From Chthonomonadaceae bacterium (GTDB lineage: Bacteria; Armatimonadota; Chthonomonadetes; Chthonomonadales; Chthonomonadaceae), in contig JANXLO010000717.1 in the NCBI GenBank assembly GCA_025355115.1, forward strand, positions 1 through 11,245: 11,245 nt of DNA, given 5' to 3'. A model generated the notes under the pieces. That model worked only from the letters and a program-made list of their open reading frames with translations, did no database searches and was not told the DNA's origin. Positions 1,215 through 10,135 of this stretch are shown here, piece by piece (positions within the stretch are counted from its first letter, which is position 1; every line of letters begins with the position of its first letter). Position numbers and translations under genes: made by a program.

Positions 1215-2318
1215 ATGCATTCGACGATAGACATGCGAAGCGACACCGTCACTCGGCCTTCACTTGAGATGCGGAGAGCGATGGCCGAGGCCGAAGTTGG
1301 CGACGATGTCTATGAGGACGACCCGACAGTCAATGCGCTCCAGGAGCGGGCCGCGCTGCTGCTGGGCAAGGAGGCGGGACTCCTCGTGCCCTCCGGAACG
1401 ATGGGCAACGCGCTGGCGCTCATGACTCACACCCGTCCTGGTGACGAGGTGCTGATGGACACGGACGCGCACTCCATGCTCTACGAGGTCGGCCTGCCCG
1501 CCACGCTGGCTCATGTTCTGACGCGGCAGTTTCGCAGCAGGGCAGGTATCCCGGACGTGGAGGAGATCGAAGGCTGCCTTCATTCCGCCGACCTTCACAC
1601 CCCCGGTACTTCCCTCCTCATTCTGGAGAATACGCACAACCGGGCAGGCGGCACCGTCATCCCACTGGACGTCCATCTGGCGGTCGCTCAACTGGCTCGC
1701 TCGCGCGGCTTCTCGGTGCATATAGATGGGGCACGGCTTTTCAACGCAGTCGTGGCCTCCGGCGTGCCTGCTTCTGAATTCGCCGCCTGCGCCGACAGCG
1801 TAACATTCTGCCTCTCCAAAGGGCTGGGTTGCCCGGTCGGATCGGTGCTGTGTGGGACGGAAGCCTTCATAGAGCGAGCGCGGCGCTTCCGCAAGATGCT
1901 GGGCGGAGGCATGAGGCAGGCAGGCATTCTGGCTGCGGCGGGACTCTACGCTCTCGACAACAACATAGCTCGTTTGGCCGACGACCATCGTCACGCCCGA
2001 CGGCTTGCGGATGGCCTCACCGACGCCCCCGGGCTCACACTGGAGAAGCACGAAATCCCCACCAATATGGTCTATTTCCGCACCCAGGTTCCCGCCTCAC
2101 AGTTCGCCGAAAGACTTGCCGCGCACGACATCCTCTGCGGTGCTCCCGCAACTATCTATGTAGCGAAGTCCGAAGCAGGACGACGTGCTCCAGGTGCTCC
2201 TGGCGTGCGCCCTGTCCCCAACCGCATTCGTCTCGTCACTCATCTCGACATCGACTCGGAGGACATCGAGCGAGCCATCACCTCTATTCGATCGGTAGGG
2301 GCAGCAATGAACGCTTAA
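1215..2318 (+). CDS. ltaE: Low-specificity L-threonine aldolase (PLP-dependent)
   Basis: This is a cytosolic fold-type I PLP enzyme that cleaves L-threonine or L-allo-threonine to glycine and acetaldehyde. Family landmarks appear in order: RSDTVT at 8-13, the PSGTMGN phosphate-cup region near 59-65, His86 in the HSMLYEVG segment (the ring-stacking histidine of the family), HIDGARLFNA at 169-178 with the PLP-binding Asp171, and Lys202 in CLSKGLGCPVGS as the predicted Schiff-base lysine. VTHLDI at 341-346 is the usual C-terminal signature. At 367 residues it is about 30 longer than E. coli LtaE (333). Part of the excess is an Ala/Gly/Pro/Arg-rich stretch around 321-336, probably a surface loop. 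GAGGAG at 1203-1208 lies 6 nt before the ATG, which fixes the start. The next gene begins 24 bp downstream, so the two are probably co-transcribed. I found no convincing promoter in 1118-1214. The protein could also act on other beta-hydroxy amino acids. Confidence 0.94.
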   Translation: MHSTIDMRSDTVTRPSLEMRRAMAEAEVGDDVYEDDPTVNALQERAALLLGKEAGLLVPSGTMGNALALMTHTRPGDEVLMDTDAHSMLYEVGLPATLAHVLTRQFRSRAGIPDVEEIEGCLHSADLHTPGTSLLILENTHNRAGGTVIPLDVHLAVAQLARSRGFSVHIDGARLFNAVVASGVPASEFAACADSVTFCLSKGLGCPVGSVLCGTEAFIERARRFRKMLGGGMRQAGILAAAGLYALDNNIARLADDHRHARRLADGLTDAPGLTLEKHEIPTNMVYFRTQVPASQFAERLAAHDILCGAPATIYVAKSEAGRRAPGAPGVRPVPNRIRLVTHLDIDSEDIERAITSIRSVGAAMNA

Positions 2319-2342
2319 TCCCTGGACCACGTAGAGGGAAGT

Positions 2343-4445
2343 ATGATCTGGCTTTTCTTGTGCGGGATCGCAGCGGCGGCGCTGGCGGTGTGGACGGTGA
2401 TGTCGGCGCGCAAGGCAGAACGGGACTATCCTCCGCGCGGGGAGTTCGTCATAGTGGACGGCACCCGTCTGCACTATTTGCGGCGCGGGGCCGGGCCGCC
2501 TCTGGTGCTTCTGCACGGCAGCGACGGATCGCTGCTGGATTTCGCCGACACCGTGCTGGAGACGCTGAGCAGAGATTACGAAGTGTTCGTATTCGACCGG
2601 CCAGGGCATGGGTACAGCGAGGGGCCGTACCATGCCCTGGCCGACCCGAAGGTGCAACTGCAACTTATCCATGAAGCTGTCTGCAGGCTTGGCGTGAAGC
2701 GCCCAGTGCTCGTCGGGCACTCCTGGAGCGGACTGCTTCTCATGATGTATGCCCTGGAGTATCCGGAGGAGCTTTCAGGGTTGGTGCTGCTCGCCCCCTG
2801 GGTCTATGCACCCTCCTCCTCTCCCTCTCCACTGCTCTATGCCCCACGTGTACCCCTGCTCGGTGATCTCGCCCTTTGGACGCTCAATCGGCTGGTCAAG
2901 GGAGCGGTCATAGGCTCCGAACTCCGCCGTGCATTCCTTCCCGACCCTGTTCCCGCAGAGTATGCGAGGCAGTCCCTTGCCTGCTGGCTTCGCTGGCCCC
3001 GACAGGTGAAAGTATTCGCAAGGGAGAACACGGCGGATCGCAAGGCGCTTTGCGAGGCGAGCGTTCGCTATAAAGAAGTAGACGTCCCGCTGGTGATTGT
3101 TGCAGGGGAGGCAGACGGAATCTTGCCCGTGAGCGATCAGGCTCAGCGGCTTCACAGCGAGATTCCGGGTTCGGAGCTTTGTCTGCTGCGGGGCGTTGGT
3201 CATCAGTTGATGCACACTCGGCCCGATGAAGTCTGCGATAGCGTCGCACGCTGTGTTCGCCTGGCGCAGAATCGCGGTCTGACAGCGCTTCCCGCACCTC
3301 TCCGTTCCTCCGATCTGAGCCAAAGTGATCAAACAGCGGGGAGCACGACGACCGGTGGCGGATTCGCGTCGGGTGTGAATTCAATGCAGCGGGTTAGAGA
3401 TCTCGTATTTCGCTGCGGATGGAACTCGGCTGCTTATCAGATACTGAACCCGGAGATGGAGCACTGGTTCTCTTCCGCCGGGGATGCCGTCGTAGGGTAT
3501 GTGCGGCGCGGGGGATTTCGGGTCGTCGCAGGCGCGCCAGTCTGCGAGGAGGCGAAGCTGGCATCGGCAGTTCAGGAGTTCGAGAACGAGGCATCGCTGG
3601 CGGGCGAGAAAGTCTGCTATTTCGGTGCGGCATCGCGACTTAGGGCTGTAATGCTGGAGCTCCCAGGCCATTCGGAGATCGTCATCGGCGCGCAGCCAGC
3701 ATGGAATCCGCAGGGATGGACAGAGCTGATGGCGAAGCACGCCTCCCTCCGAGCACAGATCAGCCGGGCACGCAACAAAGGAGTGGAAGTGGAGGAGTGG
3801 CCGGGCGAGGCGGCGGCCCGCAATCTCAGCCTTATCGCCTGCCTGGAGGAGTGGGCGTCTTCCCGCCCGCTGCCCTCTTTGCGATTTATGACTCAGCCGG
3901 TCGACCTGACGCGGCTGCATGATCGCCGTCTCTTCGTCGCGCAGAATGCGGGCGAAGTCGTCGGCTTTCTGATCGCCACCCCGATCCCAGATCGTTGCGG
4001 CTGGCTGATCGAGCAGATCGTCCGGGGAAAGTCGGCACCAAACGGAACGGCCGAGCTGCTGGTCGGGTCGGCGATGCGGGCTTTGGCAGAGAGCGGCGCA
4101 GAGTATGTCACCCTTGGGCTTGCCCCGTTGTCGAAACGGGCCGGAACGGATCGTGGAGCCGATGCCTCCTGGCTGAGCCTGCTGCTCGATCTGATCAGGG
4201 CGCACGGCAGACGCTTCTACAATTTCGATGGCCTGGATTCGTTCAAGGCAAAGTTTCGGCCGGATTTCTGGGAGCCGCTCTATGCCATTTCGAACGAAAG
4301 GCGTTTCTCCCTGCCCGCGCTATACGCCATCGCAGCCGCCTTTAGTGAAGGCCCTCCCCTCGCCGCCATGTTCAAAGCTGTTCTAGCTGCCGCCAGGCAA
4401 GAAATCCAGTGGCTCAATCGCCACTCTCCCAGTAAGCAAGCCTGA
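2343..4445 (+). CDS. Membrane-anchored alpha/beta hydrolase fused to MprF/LPG-synthase C-terminal (DUF2156-type) domain
   Basis: This 700-residue protein has two parts. Residues about 2-20 form a hydrophobic N-terminal segment, probably a membrane anchor. Residues about 34-310 are an alpha/beta hydrolase: oxyanion-hole HGSDG at 58-62, nucleophile elbow GHSWSG with Ser127, and predicted acid Asp258 and His287 (GVGHQ). A Ser/Thr/Gly-rich linker covers about 318-347. Residues about 348-690 match the GNAT-fold domain at the C-terminus of lysyl/alanyl-phosphatidylglycerol synthases: YQILNPEMEHWFSSAGDAVV near 365-384, VVAGAPVC at 394-401, and the closing FDGLDSFKAKFRPDFWEPLY at 628-647. That family moves an amino acid from aminoacyl-tRNA to a lipid head group. 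The large flippase membrane domain of MprF is absent. A GAGGGA site at 2334-2339 precedes the ATG by 3 nt. The gene follows the threonine aldolase by 24 bp. Substrate and even aminoacyl-transfer activity are inferences; the domain assignments are strong. See findings for the fusion hypothesis. Confidence 0.88.
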   Translation: MIWLFLCGIAAAALAVWTVMSARKAERDYPPRGEFVIVDGTRLHYLRRGAGPPLVLLHGSDGSLLDFADTVLETLSRDYEVFVFDRPGHGYSEGPYHALADPKVQLQLIHEAVCRLGVKRPVLVGHSWSGLLLMMYALEYPEELSGLVLLAPWVYAPSSSPSPLLYAPRVPLLGDLALWTLNRLVKGAVIGSELRRAFLPDPVPAEYARQSLACWLRWPRQVKVFARENTADRKALCEASVRYKEVDVPLVIVAGEADGILPVSDQAQRLHSEIPGSELCLLRGVGHQLMHTRPDEVCDSVARCVRLAQNRGLTALPAPLRSSDLSQSDQTAGSTTTGGGFASGVNSMQRVRDLVFRCGWNSAAYQILNPEMEHWFSSAGDAVVGYVRRGGFRVVAGAPVCEEAKLASAVQEFENEASLAGEKVCYFGAASRLRAVMLELPGHSEIVIGAQPAWNPQGWTELMAKHASLRAQISRARNKGVEVEEWPGEAAARNLSLIACLEEWASSRPLPSLRFMTQPVDLTRLHDRRLFVAQNAGEVVGFLIATPIPDRCGWLIEQIVRGKSAPNGTAELLVGSAMRALAESGAEYVTLGLAPLSKRAGTDRGADASWLSLLLDLIRAHGRRFYNFDGLDSFKAKFRPDFWEPLYAISNERRFSLPALYAIAAAFSEGPPLAAMFKAVLAAARQEIQWLNRHSPSKQA

Positions 4446-7237: not shown

Positions 7238-7987
7238 TTAGCGCTGAGGATTGCGTCGCCAATCGTTATCGCTGTAGGAGCGCCACGTCTGCTCTGGGCG
7301 CTTCCATTTCGAGTGTCCGTCGGCGAAGGCGACGTTTCCTCCCTGCTGATGGCGCGCGACAAAACGGGCTTGGGATGCCACGTCGAACGCCCAGGGCTGC
7401 GGATAGAGGCCGCCGCGCGAGGAGGTATTGTCCGAACGCGCCGCGTCTGCACACATCAGGAACTCCGCGGGGAAGGAAATGCTGGCCAATGGTGTGCCCT
7501 GATTGAATCCGAAATCGCTCAGGTCCGGCTGAGCCTGCCCAGAGTAGTTGAGAGAGTGGTTGCTGCTGGCAGGAACCAGGCTTCCTTCATTGAAATGGCA
7601 GCCGTAATCAGTTGGATACCAGTTGCCCGGCCCAATGGGTGCCCATGGCAGAGCTGAGGGACACTTGAACAGGCCCTGGCTCTTGATGTAAGGCTGCAGG
7701 ATCATGCGATAGCTGTATGGTACGCGAGCCTCGGCAGTATCGGGCACCGTGGACGGGGCCTGACGCTCGGAGACGGTGGCCATAAAACCGTCATCGTAGT
7801 CCTGATTGTACATAGCGAAGCCCAGGCTGATCTGCTTGGTGTTGGACAGGCAAGCGGTACTACGGGCTTTTTCGCGTGCCTGCGAGAAAACAGGGAAGAG
7901 TATCGCCGCCAATATGGCAATGATGGCGATGACGACAAGCAGTTCGATGAGTGTAAAAGCAGACCGACGATGTGTATTGTGGTTCAT
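7238..7987 (-). CDS. Type II secretion/type IV pilin-like pseudopilin with H-X9-DG motif (DUF1559-like)
   Basis: This 249-residue protein begins with a short basic leader ending RRSA, then [19 protein letters not shown], the class III prepilin N-terminus with Glu at +5 of the mature protein. The residue before the cleavage site is Ala10 instead of the usual Gly. The hydrophobic helix runs to about residue 30, followed by [12 protein letters not shown], a junction frequent in Armatimonadota and Planctomycetota pseudopilins. The C-terminus has [17 protein letters not shown], where His213 is followed by nine residues and Asp223-Gly224, the prepilin-associated H-X9-DG motif. The product is expected in the inner membrane and to be processed by a prepilin peptidase; such proteins occur in many paralogs with largely unknown roles. 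AGGAAGG at 7998-7992 lies 4 nt before the ATG (the inner AAAGGA gives 7 nt). The gene has its own strong promoter at 8080-8051 and an inverted repeat in the leader. No pilus or secretion genes are adjacent. Confidence 0.93.
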
Positions 7988-8234: not shown

Positions 8235-8948
8235 ATGCGCTCAGTGCTTGTTCTGGCTGGTTTCCTCTGCCTTGCTGCATGTTGTGCGTGTCTGCCCGTC
8301 ATGTCTCAGGAGCGCGCGGTCGTCTGCATCGATCCGGGGCACCCATCGGAGGTCAACAGCGGTCTGGAGAGGCAGAACGGCACTACGGAGACGCATATAG
8401 ATTGGGCCGTTGCGCTCAAGCTGCAGAAAATTCTTGCCTTGAAGGGCTTTAAGGTGGTGATGACGAAATCAGCAGAGAAGCAGATGGTCAGAAACAAGGA
8501 TCGAGCCCTCATCGCCAACCGTGCGGGAGCCGCCCTGATGGTGCGACTCCACTGCGACTCCAGCAAGGATAAGGGATACGCCGTCTACTATCCGGATCGG
8601 CAGGGCACGAAAGAGGGGACGACCGGGCCGACGAAGGAGATTATGGAGAGCAGCCGAGCGGCAGCGGAAGTGGTTGACGGAGCGATGAGCAGGGCGCTGA
8701 ATGGCACGCTGAAAAATGGTGGTGTTCGAGGCGATTCGAAAACGTTCGTTGGGGGAAAACAGGGCGCACTGACCGGTTCTATCTTTTCGCAGGTTCCCGT
8801 TCTCACGATCGAGATGGTCGTCCTGAATCGCAAAAGTGATGCCGACTTCATTCGCAGTGAGGCGGGGCAAAGCCGAATGGCGCAGGCCATTGCGGACGGG
8901 GTAGTCCAGTTTGCTGGCACATCGCGCGATGGGGGCAATATTAAGTAG
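8235..8948 (+). CDS. N-acetylmuramoyl-L-alanine amidase (Amidase_3 type), probable lipoprotein
   Basis: This 237-residue zinc amidase is predicted to cut the bond between N-acetylmuramic acid and L-alanine in peptidoglycan stem peptides. Family landmarks are the first zinc ligand His36 in CIDPGHPSE, Glu52 in TETH, His106 in RLHCDSS, and Glu193 in VLTIEM as the predicted catalytic glutamate. The N-terminus is a hydrophobic export signal containing a lipobox LAAC (13-16). The mature protein may therefore be lipid-anchored on Cys16; ordinary signal peptidase cleavage near residue 24 is an alternative. There is no separate peptidoglycan-binding domain in this chain. AGGAG at 8221-8225 sits 9 nt before the ATG. 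The YARHG-repeat gene starts 20 bp after the stop, which implies co-transcription. I found no clear plus-strand promoter in 8081-8220. Roles in cell-wall recycling, division or sporulation-like processes cannot be separated by sequence. Confidence 0.92.
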   Translation: MRSVLVLAGFLCLAACCACLPVMSQERAVVCIDPGHPSEVNSGLERQNGTTETHIDWAVALKLQKILALKGFKVVMTKSAEKQMVRNKDRALIANRAGAALMVRLHCDSSKDKGYAVYYPDRQGTKEGTTGPTKEIMESSRAAAEVVDGAMSRALNGTLKNGGVRGDSKTFVGGKQGALTGSIFSQVPVLTIEMVVLNRKSDADFIRSEAGQSRMAQAIADGVVQFAGTSRDGGNIK

Positions 8949-8968: not shown

Positions 8969-10135
8969 ATGCTGGCGCATCTCGTGCCGAATCGATGTCC
9001 ATGGAGCGGTTTAATCCTGCTGGCAGGAGCGATGCTCCCCGCCGCGGCGCAAAAACCCGATGCCCTCGCGAAATGGGAGAGCTTTGATTTCGTTCATAAC
9101 CTTGTCACAGCCGACCAACTCAAAGACCTGTCCCCAACGCAGTTGAAGTACATGCGCGGCATAGTCTTCGGTAAGCATGGGCGGGTGTTCGACGAGGCGG
9201 CTATTCAGGACTGGCTCAAGACTCGGCCCTGGTATCGGCCCGATCCGAAGTACAAAGTGACGGTGCTGAACGACACCGAGCGAGCCGATATGGATGCGAT
9301 CAAGGAGGCGGAGTTTCATAAGCACGAGTACATCGAGCCGGGCGACCTGAAATTCTATCGTGACAAGACGTTCGAAGCGAAGGCTCTTGGGGAACACTCG
9401 TCGATAGAGTGGACGATCATGCGGGCGGAGGTGGAGGCGATTCATGGCAAGACGTTCACCGATCAGCCCTGGCTGCAAAGCTTCTTCGCCGAGCGCTACT
9501 GGTATCGTCCCGACCCGAAATATTCTCCTGCTGTGCTCTCTGACATCGAGCGCAAGAACATCGCGACGATCGCAGCGGCAGTCAAGACTCAGCGCAAAGT
9601 GGCGCTCGCGCCCGGCGACATGGGCTTGTTCCAGGAGACAGCCATTGCGCCTGAACTGCTGAAAGGTTTGAGCCTGTATGAGCTTCGCCTGCTTCGGAAC
9701 GAAGTCTATGCACGACGCGGCAAACGATTTCATACCGGCTGGATACAAAACTATTTCACGGATGAGGGGTGGTATCGGCCGCACAAGGACTATCGGGAGC
9801 CAAAACTTTCCGCAATAGAGGCACGCAATGTCGCGGTGATCGTAGAGGCTGAAACCCGAATGCACGACAGCCTCACGACGAAGCCAATCGACGTCGCGCT
9901 CTTTGATAATCTGTACTTAGAGGATGCTCGCAAACTGCGCGAGGAGATCTACGCGCATCACGGGAAAATCTTCACCGACCACTGGACAAACGGATATTTC
10001 CGCAGCTTCAAATGGTACAAGCCTGATCCGAATTTCTCGGTGAAATCGCTCTCCTCGCTGGAGAAGCGTAACGCGGCGGTCATTCTGGCCTATGAGAAAA
10101 AGGCGCGACAGGAGGGAGCCGCCACTGCCGCTTGA
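8969..10135 (+). CDS. Secreted protein with four YARHG-type repeats
   Basis: This 388-residue protein has an N-terminal export signal (hydrophobic core about 12-26, likely cut after AAA at 25-27). The rest is four related modules at about 58-113, 148-203, 238-293 and 320-375, spaced 90, 90 and 82 residues apart. Each has a helix ending in a divergent YARHG-like motif (FGKHG 67-71, EAIHG 156-160, YARRG 247-251, YAHHG 328-332). Each then has an aromatic WYRPDPKY-type motif (88-95, 178-185, 268-275, and WYKPDPNF at 349-356) and a closing LS..E..N helix. YARHG is a presumed extracellular domain without established function. Repeat 4 has a shortened lead-in. AGGGAG at 8956-8961 lies 7 nt before the ATG. 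The gene follows the amidase by 20 bp and is closed by a terminator, so the pair looks like a complete two-gene operon. A role in binding or positioning at the cell wall is an inference from that neighbour. Confidence 0.88.
   Translation: MLAHLVPNRCPWSGLILLAGAMLPAAAQKPDALAKWESFDFVHNLVTADQLKDLSPTQLKYMRGIVFGKHGRVFDEAAIQDWLKTRPWYRPDPKYKVTVLNDTERADMDAIKEAEFHKHEYIEPGDLKFYRDKTFEAKALGEHSSIEWTIMRAEVEAIHGKTFTDQPWLQSFFAERYWYRPDPKYSPAVLSDIERKNIATIAAAVKTQRKVALAPGDMGLFQETAIAPELLKGLSLYELRLLRNEVYARRGKRFHTGWIQNYFTDEGWYRPHKDYREPKLSAIEARNVAVIVEAETRMHDSLTTKPIDVALFDNLYLEDARKLREEIYAHHGKIFTDHWTNGYFRSFKWYKPDPNFSVKSLSSLEKRNAAVILAYEKKARQEGAATAA

Follow-up and report, generated by a model that had tools for sequence, protein, structure and literature searches.

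A membrane-anchored serine hydrolase fused to a divergent, flippase-less LPG_synthase_C domain in Chthonomonadaceae

The stretch of DNA analysed here (the window) comprises positions 1 to 11,245 of contig JANXLO010000717.1 from the Chthonomonadaceae bacterium assembly GCA_025355115.1. On its forward strand, one intact open reading frame (ORF) joins an N-terminal anchor, an alpha/beta hydrolase, a disordered linker and an LPG_synthase_C (DUF2156) domain. This architecture, with a Ser127/Asp258/His287 triad and a flexible linker, had been proposed in a first-pass annotation made from the window alone, and is confirmed by the ORF, by Pfam, by an AlphaFold2 model and by the triad residues of the whole family. 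The features of the gene are as follows.

2333..2338, + strand: Shine-Dalgarno-like AGAGGG before the start codon (by eye)
2343..4445, + strand: fusion gene, ATG start, 700 residues (ORF; Pfam; 75 further fusion homologues)
2346..2426, + strand: N-terminal anchor helix, residues 2–28 (AlphaFold2 secondary structure), with positive charges on its C-terminal side only
2442..3272, + strand: alpha/beta hydrolase domain, residues 34–310
2721..2723, + strand: codon of the nucleophile Ser127 (Ser in 76 of 76 fusions)
3114..3116, + strand: codon of the catalytic Asp258 (Asp in 76 of 76)
3201..3203, + strand: codon of the catalytic His287 (His in 76 of 76)
3303..3377, + strand: flexible linker, residues 321–345 (predicted local distance difference test score, pLDDT, below 50)
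3378..4442, + strand: LPG_synthase_C (DUF2156) tandem-GNAT domain, residues 346–700 (Pfam match 361–649)
3456..3458, + strand: Met372, replacing the essential Lys547 of S. aureus MprF
4011..4022, + strand: Glu557-Gln-Ile-Val560, replacing MprF Asp731-x-x-Arg734
4245..4247, + strand: Lys635, the only essential MprF residue retained (Lys806; conserved in 74 of the 76 fusions and in all 40 standalone proteins aligned)

Both domains score well above their Pfam cut-offs, Abhydrolase_6 at residues 54–299 (83.8 bits, cut-off 26.3) and LPG_synthase_C (PF09924) at residues 361–649 (146.5 bits, cut-off 27.5), the latter as the first-pass annotation had supposed. The AlphaFold2 model, built from an 86-row alignment, has a mean pLDDT of 90.5 and a predicted template modelling score of 0.68; it comprises the N-terminal helix and two confident globular domains, the second with the tandem-GNAT synthase fold, whose mutual orientation across the linker the model does not fix. 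As also anticipated, the protein has no flippase region: the hydrophobic segment at the N-terminus is the only one, and past residue 30 no 19-residue stretch exceeds 1.5 on the Kyte-Doolittle scale. Third-position G+C is alike in the two halves of the gene (0.692 and 0.701). A weak Pfam match to pPIWI_RE_Y over the anchor region (window positions 2358–2504; 20.2 bits, cut-off 26.7) is taken as spurious. The source genome is an incomplete assembly (3.66 Mb in 774 contigs, 74% complete) in which this is the single PF09924 gene found.

The fusion is a property of a family and not an oddity of one contig, far beyond what chance would give. A search of ∼5.8 billion proteins returned 300 hits, and all family counts here refer to the 120 that were listed. 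Defining a fusion as a protein of at least 590 residues carrying both domains, 76 of the 120 qualify, the window's own copy included; the others are 36–69% identical to the window protein. The triad is invariant in all 76, and the wider set His58, Gly59, Ser60, Asp85, Arg86, Ser127, Trp128, Asp258 and His287 is retained in 74–76 of them. The remaining 44 homologues are shorter than 590 residues and are 48–59% identical to the query over the aligned part, about half of its length; 41 of them, of 385–427 residues, are apparently standalone C-domains, and three, of 466–498 residues, look like cut fusions. No description of a hydrolase–LPG_synthase_C fusion was found in the literature searched, which covers few subscription papers.

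The N-terminal half is apparently an active Ser-His-Asp hydrolase of general esterase/lipase type, judging by its conserved residues and its matches to Abhydrolase_6, Abhydrolase_1 and Hydrolase_4. It can be compared with two kinds of membrane-associated hydrolase. AcvB, VirJ and PA0919 are likewise alpha/beta hydrolases, and AcvB works with the lysyl-phosphatidylglycerol (Lys-PG) synthase LpiA; their nucleophilic Ser and His are matched by the invariant Ser127 and His287. Such a pair is common to most alpha/beta hydrolases. AcvB has, besides, an acidic pocket for the head group, formed by Asp271, Asp340 and Asp370. The Pfam scan of the window protein gave no VirJ-type match at E 1e-3, and AcvB is not among the VIA-align structural matches listed, an absence that excludes nothing. 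The second comparison is with PlaF, a phospholipase A of Pseudomonas aeruginosa (6i8w), which like the window protein has one transmembrane/juxtamembrane helix followed by a Ser/Asp/His alpha/beta hydrolase, and to which residues 17–151 show a sequence match (E 3e-12). PlaF ranks 17th by fold in Foldseek and is not among the 50 VIA-align rows listed; it differs from the window protein in having no transferase domain.

Trees of the two halves bear on how the fusion arose. In the C-domain tree (170 rows), a long branch (length 2.78, support 100) separates the 15 MprF-type proteins from the rest. Seventy fusions cluster with one standalone protein (support 81), and nine further fusion rows, which represent five proteins, four of them entered twice, lie deeper (support 84). 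One further fusion, P0108, is placed among standalone proteins. The hydrolase tree compares the 76 fusions with 60 standalone hydrolases (every second of 120 listed) and has all 76 fusions on one side of a branch with support 98; P0108, on a branch of 5.39 and sharing no more than 28% identity with its closest row, has no reliable position in this tree. The top-scoring model for its N-terminal half is a proline-iminopeptidase-like one, below its cut-off. From its position in the C-domain tree, its long hydrolase-tree branch and its divergent N-terminal half, P0108 is best read as an independent fusion, with the caveat that a single contig provides it. A single origin was considered and set aside: the C-domain tree requires four changes, and its starred branches force two; the hydrolase tree groups all fusions, but does not really place P0108.

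These data also bear on the idea that the hydrolase half serves chiefly to tether the protein to the membrane or to regulate it allosterically, with a chemistry unrelated to the C-terminal half, the fusion being neutral history. Standalone C-domains are indeed widespread, and the hydrolase half is the more variable, as in L026, where it is 29% identical to that of the window and the C-terminal half 47%. The retention of the triad and motif residues and the second, apparently independent fusion speak against it, and we think it very unlikely.

By sequence, the true family of the C-terminal half is that of the standalone, flippase-less DUF2156 proteins of about 385–430 residues, with named records from Pyrinomonadaceae, Gemmatimonadaceae and Binatia; these lack the hydrolase and have the same pattern of active-site residues as the fusions (40 standalone proteins aligned). 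That pattern is not the one of MprF. In S. aureus MprF, K547, K621, E624, D731, R734 and K806 are essential for Lys-PG synthesis (PMC2774229). The MprF positions were mapped by spacing onto the B. licheniformis chain, in which all eight letters match the published ones; the comparison is one of sequence and profile alignment, not of residue-level structural superposition. At the six positions the window protein has M372, V447, A450, E557, V560 and K635, of which one is identical. Across the clade Lys547 becomes Met or Ile, Arg734 becomes Val or Ala, Glu685 is mostly Thr or Pro, and Asp731 becomes Glu. K621 and E624 were left out as evidence because Armatimonadota MprF-type proteins also vary there, so the telling changes are those at K547 and R734. 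Against the NCBIfam bifunc_MprF equivalog the window protein scores 83.7 bits (cut-off 600). The MprF-type synthase half of the first-pass annotation thus holds for fold and Pfam family, whereas the MprF residues are largely lost.

Other non-canonical members of the family are known. An eLife study of LPG_synthase_C proteins dropped from its training set sequences without the catalytic motif, and these rarely contain a flippase (PMC11630815). LysX2 (Rv1619) is, like the window protein, a non-canonical LPG_synthase_C protein, but its MprF-like domain is reported to be extracytoplasmic, opposite to our prediction below, and the available part of the source mentions no hydrolase (PMC8974105). VlmA, another PF09924 enzyme, forms O-seryl-isobutylhydroxylamine in a tRNA-dependent reaction (PMC9379638), which raises the possibility that the C-terminal half aminoacylates a small non-lipid molecule, with aminoacyl-tRNA as donor, and that the hydrolase processes the ester so formed. 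A VlmA-like, flippase-less LPG_synthase_C protein from L096, encoded beside VlmB-like, flavin reductase and serS genes, resembles the window's clade in that residues 546, 547 and 685 are replaced. Unlike that clade, however, the L096 protein retains Asp731 and Arg734, where the window has Glu and Val. It is 24–27% identical to the five best clade rows; VlmA has a small-molecule acceptor, and a Pfam scan of ten window ORFs revealed no azoxy-type genes. A VlmA-like activity is, in our judgement, highly improbable.

The nature of the donor is approached through the fold. Structure comparison gives the C-terminal half the fold of MprF synthases, with higher scores against FemX- and Sbb17-type enzymes than against CoA-dependent GNATs, and it is probably a divergent transferase of the aminoacyl-tRNA type. 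There is a counter-signal: PF00583 (Acetyltransf_1, the acyl-CoA-type GNAT family) matches at E 0.05 or better in 26 of the 42 members of a clade alignment (33 shorter homologues, eight fusions and the window C-half), compared with 1 of 18 MprF/VlmA-type sequences. Together with the absent R734, these weak scores make an acyl-CoA or acyl carrier protein donor conceivable. Combined with the PlaF match, they suggest single-chain acyl remodelling, in which a PlaF-like phospholipase A releases a lysolipid that the C-terminal half, as an acyltransferase, re-acylates: a Lands cycle in one protein. The PF00583 scores are marginal (22.2 bits for the window C-half alone, cut-off 20.7, but 20.3 and below cut-off for the full-length protein), the loop after Arg561 lacks a canonical CoA motif (by eye), and the structural grouping with aminoacyl-tRNA enzymes stands well above that with CoA-dependent GNATs. 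An acyl-CoA donor is not preferred because of this last comparison, and acyl remodelling, for which the periplasmic catalytic domain of PlaF (PMC9132575) is a further difficulty, seems to us quite unlikely.

Membrane topology can be predicted from the anchor. Using a threshold on N-terminal hydrophobicity, a clear segment is found in 58 of the 76 fusions. Positive charge is greater on its C-terminal side in 57 of these 58 (means 0.22 before and 3.1 after), and 50 of the 58 have no Lys or Arg before the anchor. Among standalone relatives with an anchor, 34 of 87 share this absence (p 9e-9 by Fisher's test, uncorrected for kinship). Since there is a single membrane segment, both domains should lie on the same side, and the charge bias points to the cytosol; both are accordingly predicted to be cytosolic. 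This placement would suit a transferase with a cytosolic donor, and contrasts with the periplasmic orientation of the hydrolases AcvB, VirJ and PlaF (PMC13197417; PMC13135905; PMC9132575).

The first-pass annotation had gone further and proposed a writer and eraser of membrane charge, in which an MprF-type synthase would aminoacylate a phospholipid, using aminoacyl-tRNA, and an AcvB/PA0919-type hydrolase would reverse the modification. There are real precedents: lpiA and acvB share an operon, and their products bind each other (PMC13197417); PA0919 and PA0920 form the pair cited in that annotation, and the C-terminal fold is that of MprF synthases. The proposal nevertheless proved too specific, since hallmark residues are missing from the writer half (Lys547 and Arg734, plus Glu685 in most members), the supposed eraser belongs to a different, generic Abhydrolase type without a VirJ match, and the two domains are predicted to share the cytosolic side. 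AcvB, in contrast, is encoded by a separate gene, as are VirJ and PA0919 (PMC13197417, PMC13135905), and has Lys-PG on the periplasmic face as its substrate (PMC13197417). With no flippase, a writer and an eraser on one face would run a futile cycle unless regulated. We consider this explanation unlikely. The other option given in that annotation, that the chain works on a different aminoacylated envelope molecule, may still hold.

We tentatively favour, at a little under even confidence, a membrane-tethered, bifunctional two-step enzyme on the cytosolic face of the inner membrane, whose two halves share one lipid or envelope ester as substrate. The architecture, the invariant triad, the predicted fold and the absent MprF residues are established; the reading supposes in addition the predicted topology, that both halves are catalytically active and coupled, that the substrate is of a lipid nature, and a particular class of donor and order of steps. 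The N-terminal helix would tether both domains to the membrane. Most probably the two activities are consecutive: the hydrolase would free an acceptor, or strip off an acyl group that is wrong or unwanted, and an aminoacyl or acyl group would then be added to the same molecule by the transferase. With its MprF/FemX fold, its flippase-less clade and an active site unlike that of Lys/Ala-PG synthases, the C-terminal half would probably use another acceptor, and perhaps another donor.

Several observations weigh against this two-step reading. That the C-domain is so often found alone indicates that its basic function does not depend on the hydrolase. The best structural matches of the hydrolase are generic esterases, haloperoxidase-type enzymes and C-C hydrolases, which fix no substrate. 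Arg734, absent from the window's clade, is retained in 18 of 18 comparison sequences, and its absence weakens the case for aminoacyl-tRNA. The anchor is usual but not universal, 18 of the 76 fusions having no clear one, and anchored standalone hydrolases lean the same way in 63 of 87 cases (10 even, 14 opposite; means 1.67 and 3.08), so that fusions are not alone in showing this charge bias. For P0108 there is a single sequence, from one 10.6-kb contig, which an assembly error might explain, and its C-domain placement rests on branches of 85–92% support, none of them starred. Finally, among 110 neighbour ORFs at 20 standalone C-domain loci no general partner appears in the 25 commonest of 117 families. 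Longest-first ORF picking misses genes (L038, from G079, was left out of this count, and the hydrolase gene of L094 was lost), and the hydrolase search was for this reason repeated on DNA; over 31 loci it recovered four fusions and the standalone gene of L094 (G204), and at the 26 loci with other C-domain genes it gave a single weak match, in L091 (E 2e-5, ∼3.4 kb away).

The distribution of the two halves differs. The C-half query matches 68 of 291 Armatimonadota genomes (E 1e-3 or better), and the hydrolase subfamily (E 1e-25 or better) only six, as five fusions and the standalone gene in G204. The five fusions (G000, G046, G049, G050 and G051) are all in the window's family, where among 17 genomes two others have the C-domain only (G043, G045), one has a contig-end fragment (G047) and nine have none. 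In a second phylum (149 genomes), which we take to be Acidobacteriota, six genomes match the C-half at E 1e-30 or better; fusion to this hydrolase is absent at the five loci examined (L003, L090–L093); the sixth match is G367 (29% identical, 792-residue frame). In a plasmid collection, the C-half query found no close relative (48 records, all below 60% identity), and the whole-protein query gave hydrolase matches only among the 20 records listed of 349; two records with such a match have no MprF within 6 kb, and a third carries no annotation. Mutual exclusion between the window's clade and MprF was considered, but with ∼50 genomes carrying the clade, 19 an MprF-type gene and only G008 both, where ∼3 would be expected by chance, nothing is claimed. 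By bit score in the phylum search, Armatimonadota seem to hold three PF09924 classes: MprF-type (234–304 bits, 19 genomes), a middle class without a match to the window C-half (about 142–192 bits, frames mostly of 280–350 residues, as in G188, G241 and G253), and that of the window's clade (about 61–163 bits).

Immediately upstream of the fusion, and possibly in an operon with it, lies one further gene, itself preceded by a gene for a Crp-type regulator.

1215..2318, + strand: threonine-aldolase-like gene, 24 bp upstream of the fusion (Beta_elim_lyase by Pfam; enzyme name by eye)

This neighbour is absent at the four other fusion loci examined (L045, L049, L050, L051), where a TPR-protein gene (assigned by Pfam in L045 and L049, otherwise by eye) is convergent to the fusion gene, and sugar-nucleotide dehydrogenase-like and MotA/MotB-like genes lie nearby (by eye). 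Guilt by association around the 20 standalone loci was set aside, as the recurring neighbours are single-genus synteny (YebC, polA, a glyoxalase and Abhydrolase_2 pair) or two-locus cases (an ABC1 kinase in Acidobacteriota, a CLC channel). Elsewhere in the window, an N-acetylmuramoyl-L-alanine amidase gene (8235–8948) is followed directly by one for a 388-residue protein (8969–10135) that contains four YARHG stretches, and positions 7238–7987 on the reverse strand encode a DUF1559 pseudopilin-like protein with a prepilin methylation motif.

Standalone C-domain genes have neighbours of their own. In G043 and G045, of the window's family, the C-domain gene has a CLC chloride-channel gene next to it (PF00654, found in 2 of the 110 neighbour ORFs; L053:6764–9459 and L052:5140–8272, the L052 channel confirmed by Pfam); the genes of L053 overlap in the same orientation downstream of an ArsR-like gene (by eye), and those of L052 are divergent. 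Some CLC genes have been linked to acid stress. In two Acidobacteriota genomes an ABC1/UbiB-like kinase gene (PF03109, 2 of 110) is directly followed by the C-domain gene and then a CBM9-like gene (L090:6166–8994, kinase E 1e-84, and L091:4869–7678). At L034, L036, L037 and L040, loci from four genomes within a single Armatimonadota genus, the C-domain gene is divergent from a pair encoding a glyoxalase-family protein and a small alpha/beta-hydrolase (PF02230, 3 of 110 at E 1e-5), a pair that resembles MhqO/MhqD.

The fusion matters because flippase-less LPG_synthase_C proteins are a large set with few known functions, and an intact serine hydrolase in the same chain supplies a testable partner activity and a topology. 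The most far-reaching version of the two-step reading, which we regard as doubtful, is a cytosol-facing lipid editor whose anchored hydrolase would strip an inner-leaflet lipid of an acyl or aminoacyl group, which its rewired MprF-fold transferase would replace by a different one, giving an undescribed lipid, the fusion having arisen at least twice. If the C-terminal half does not use lysyl-tRNA and phosphatidylglycerol, the name 'phosphatidylglycerol lysyltransferase', which one source gives to many proteins of the clade, is wrong. If both halves do edit one lipid, the fusion would represent a new way of remodelling the bacterial inner leaflet.
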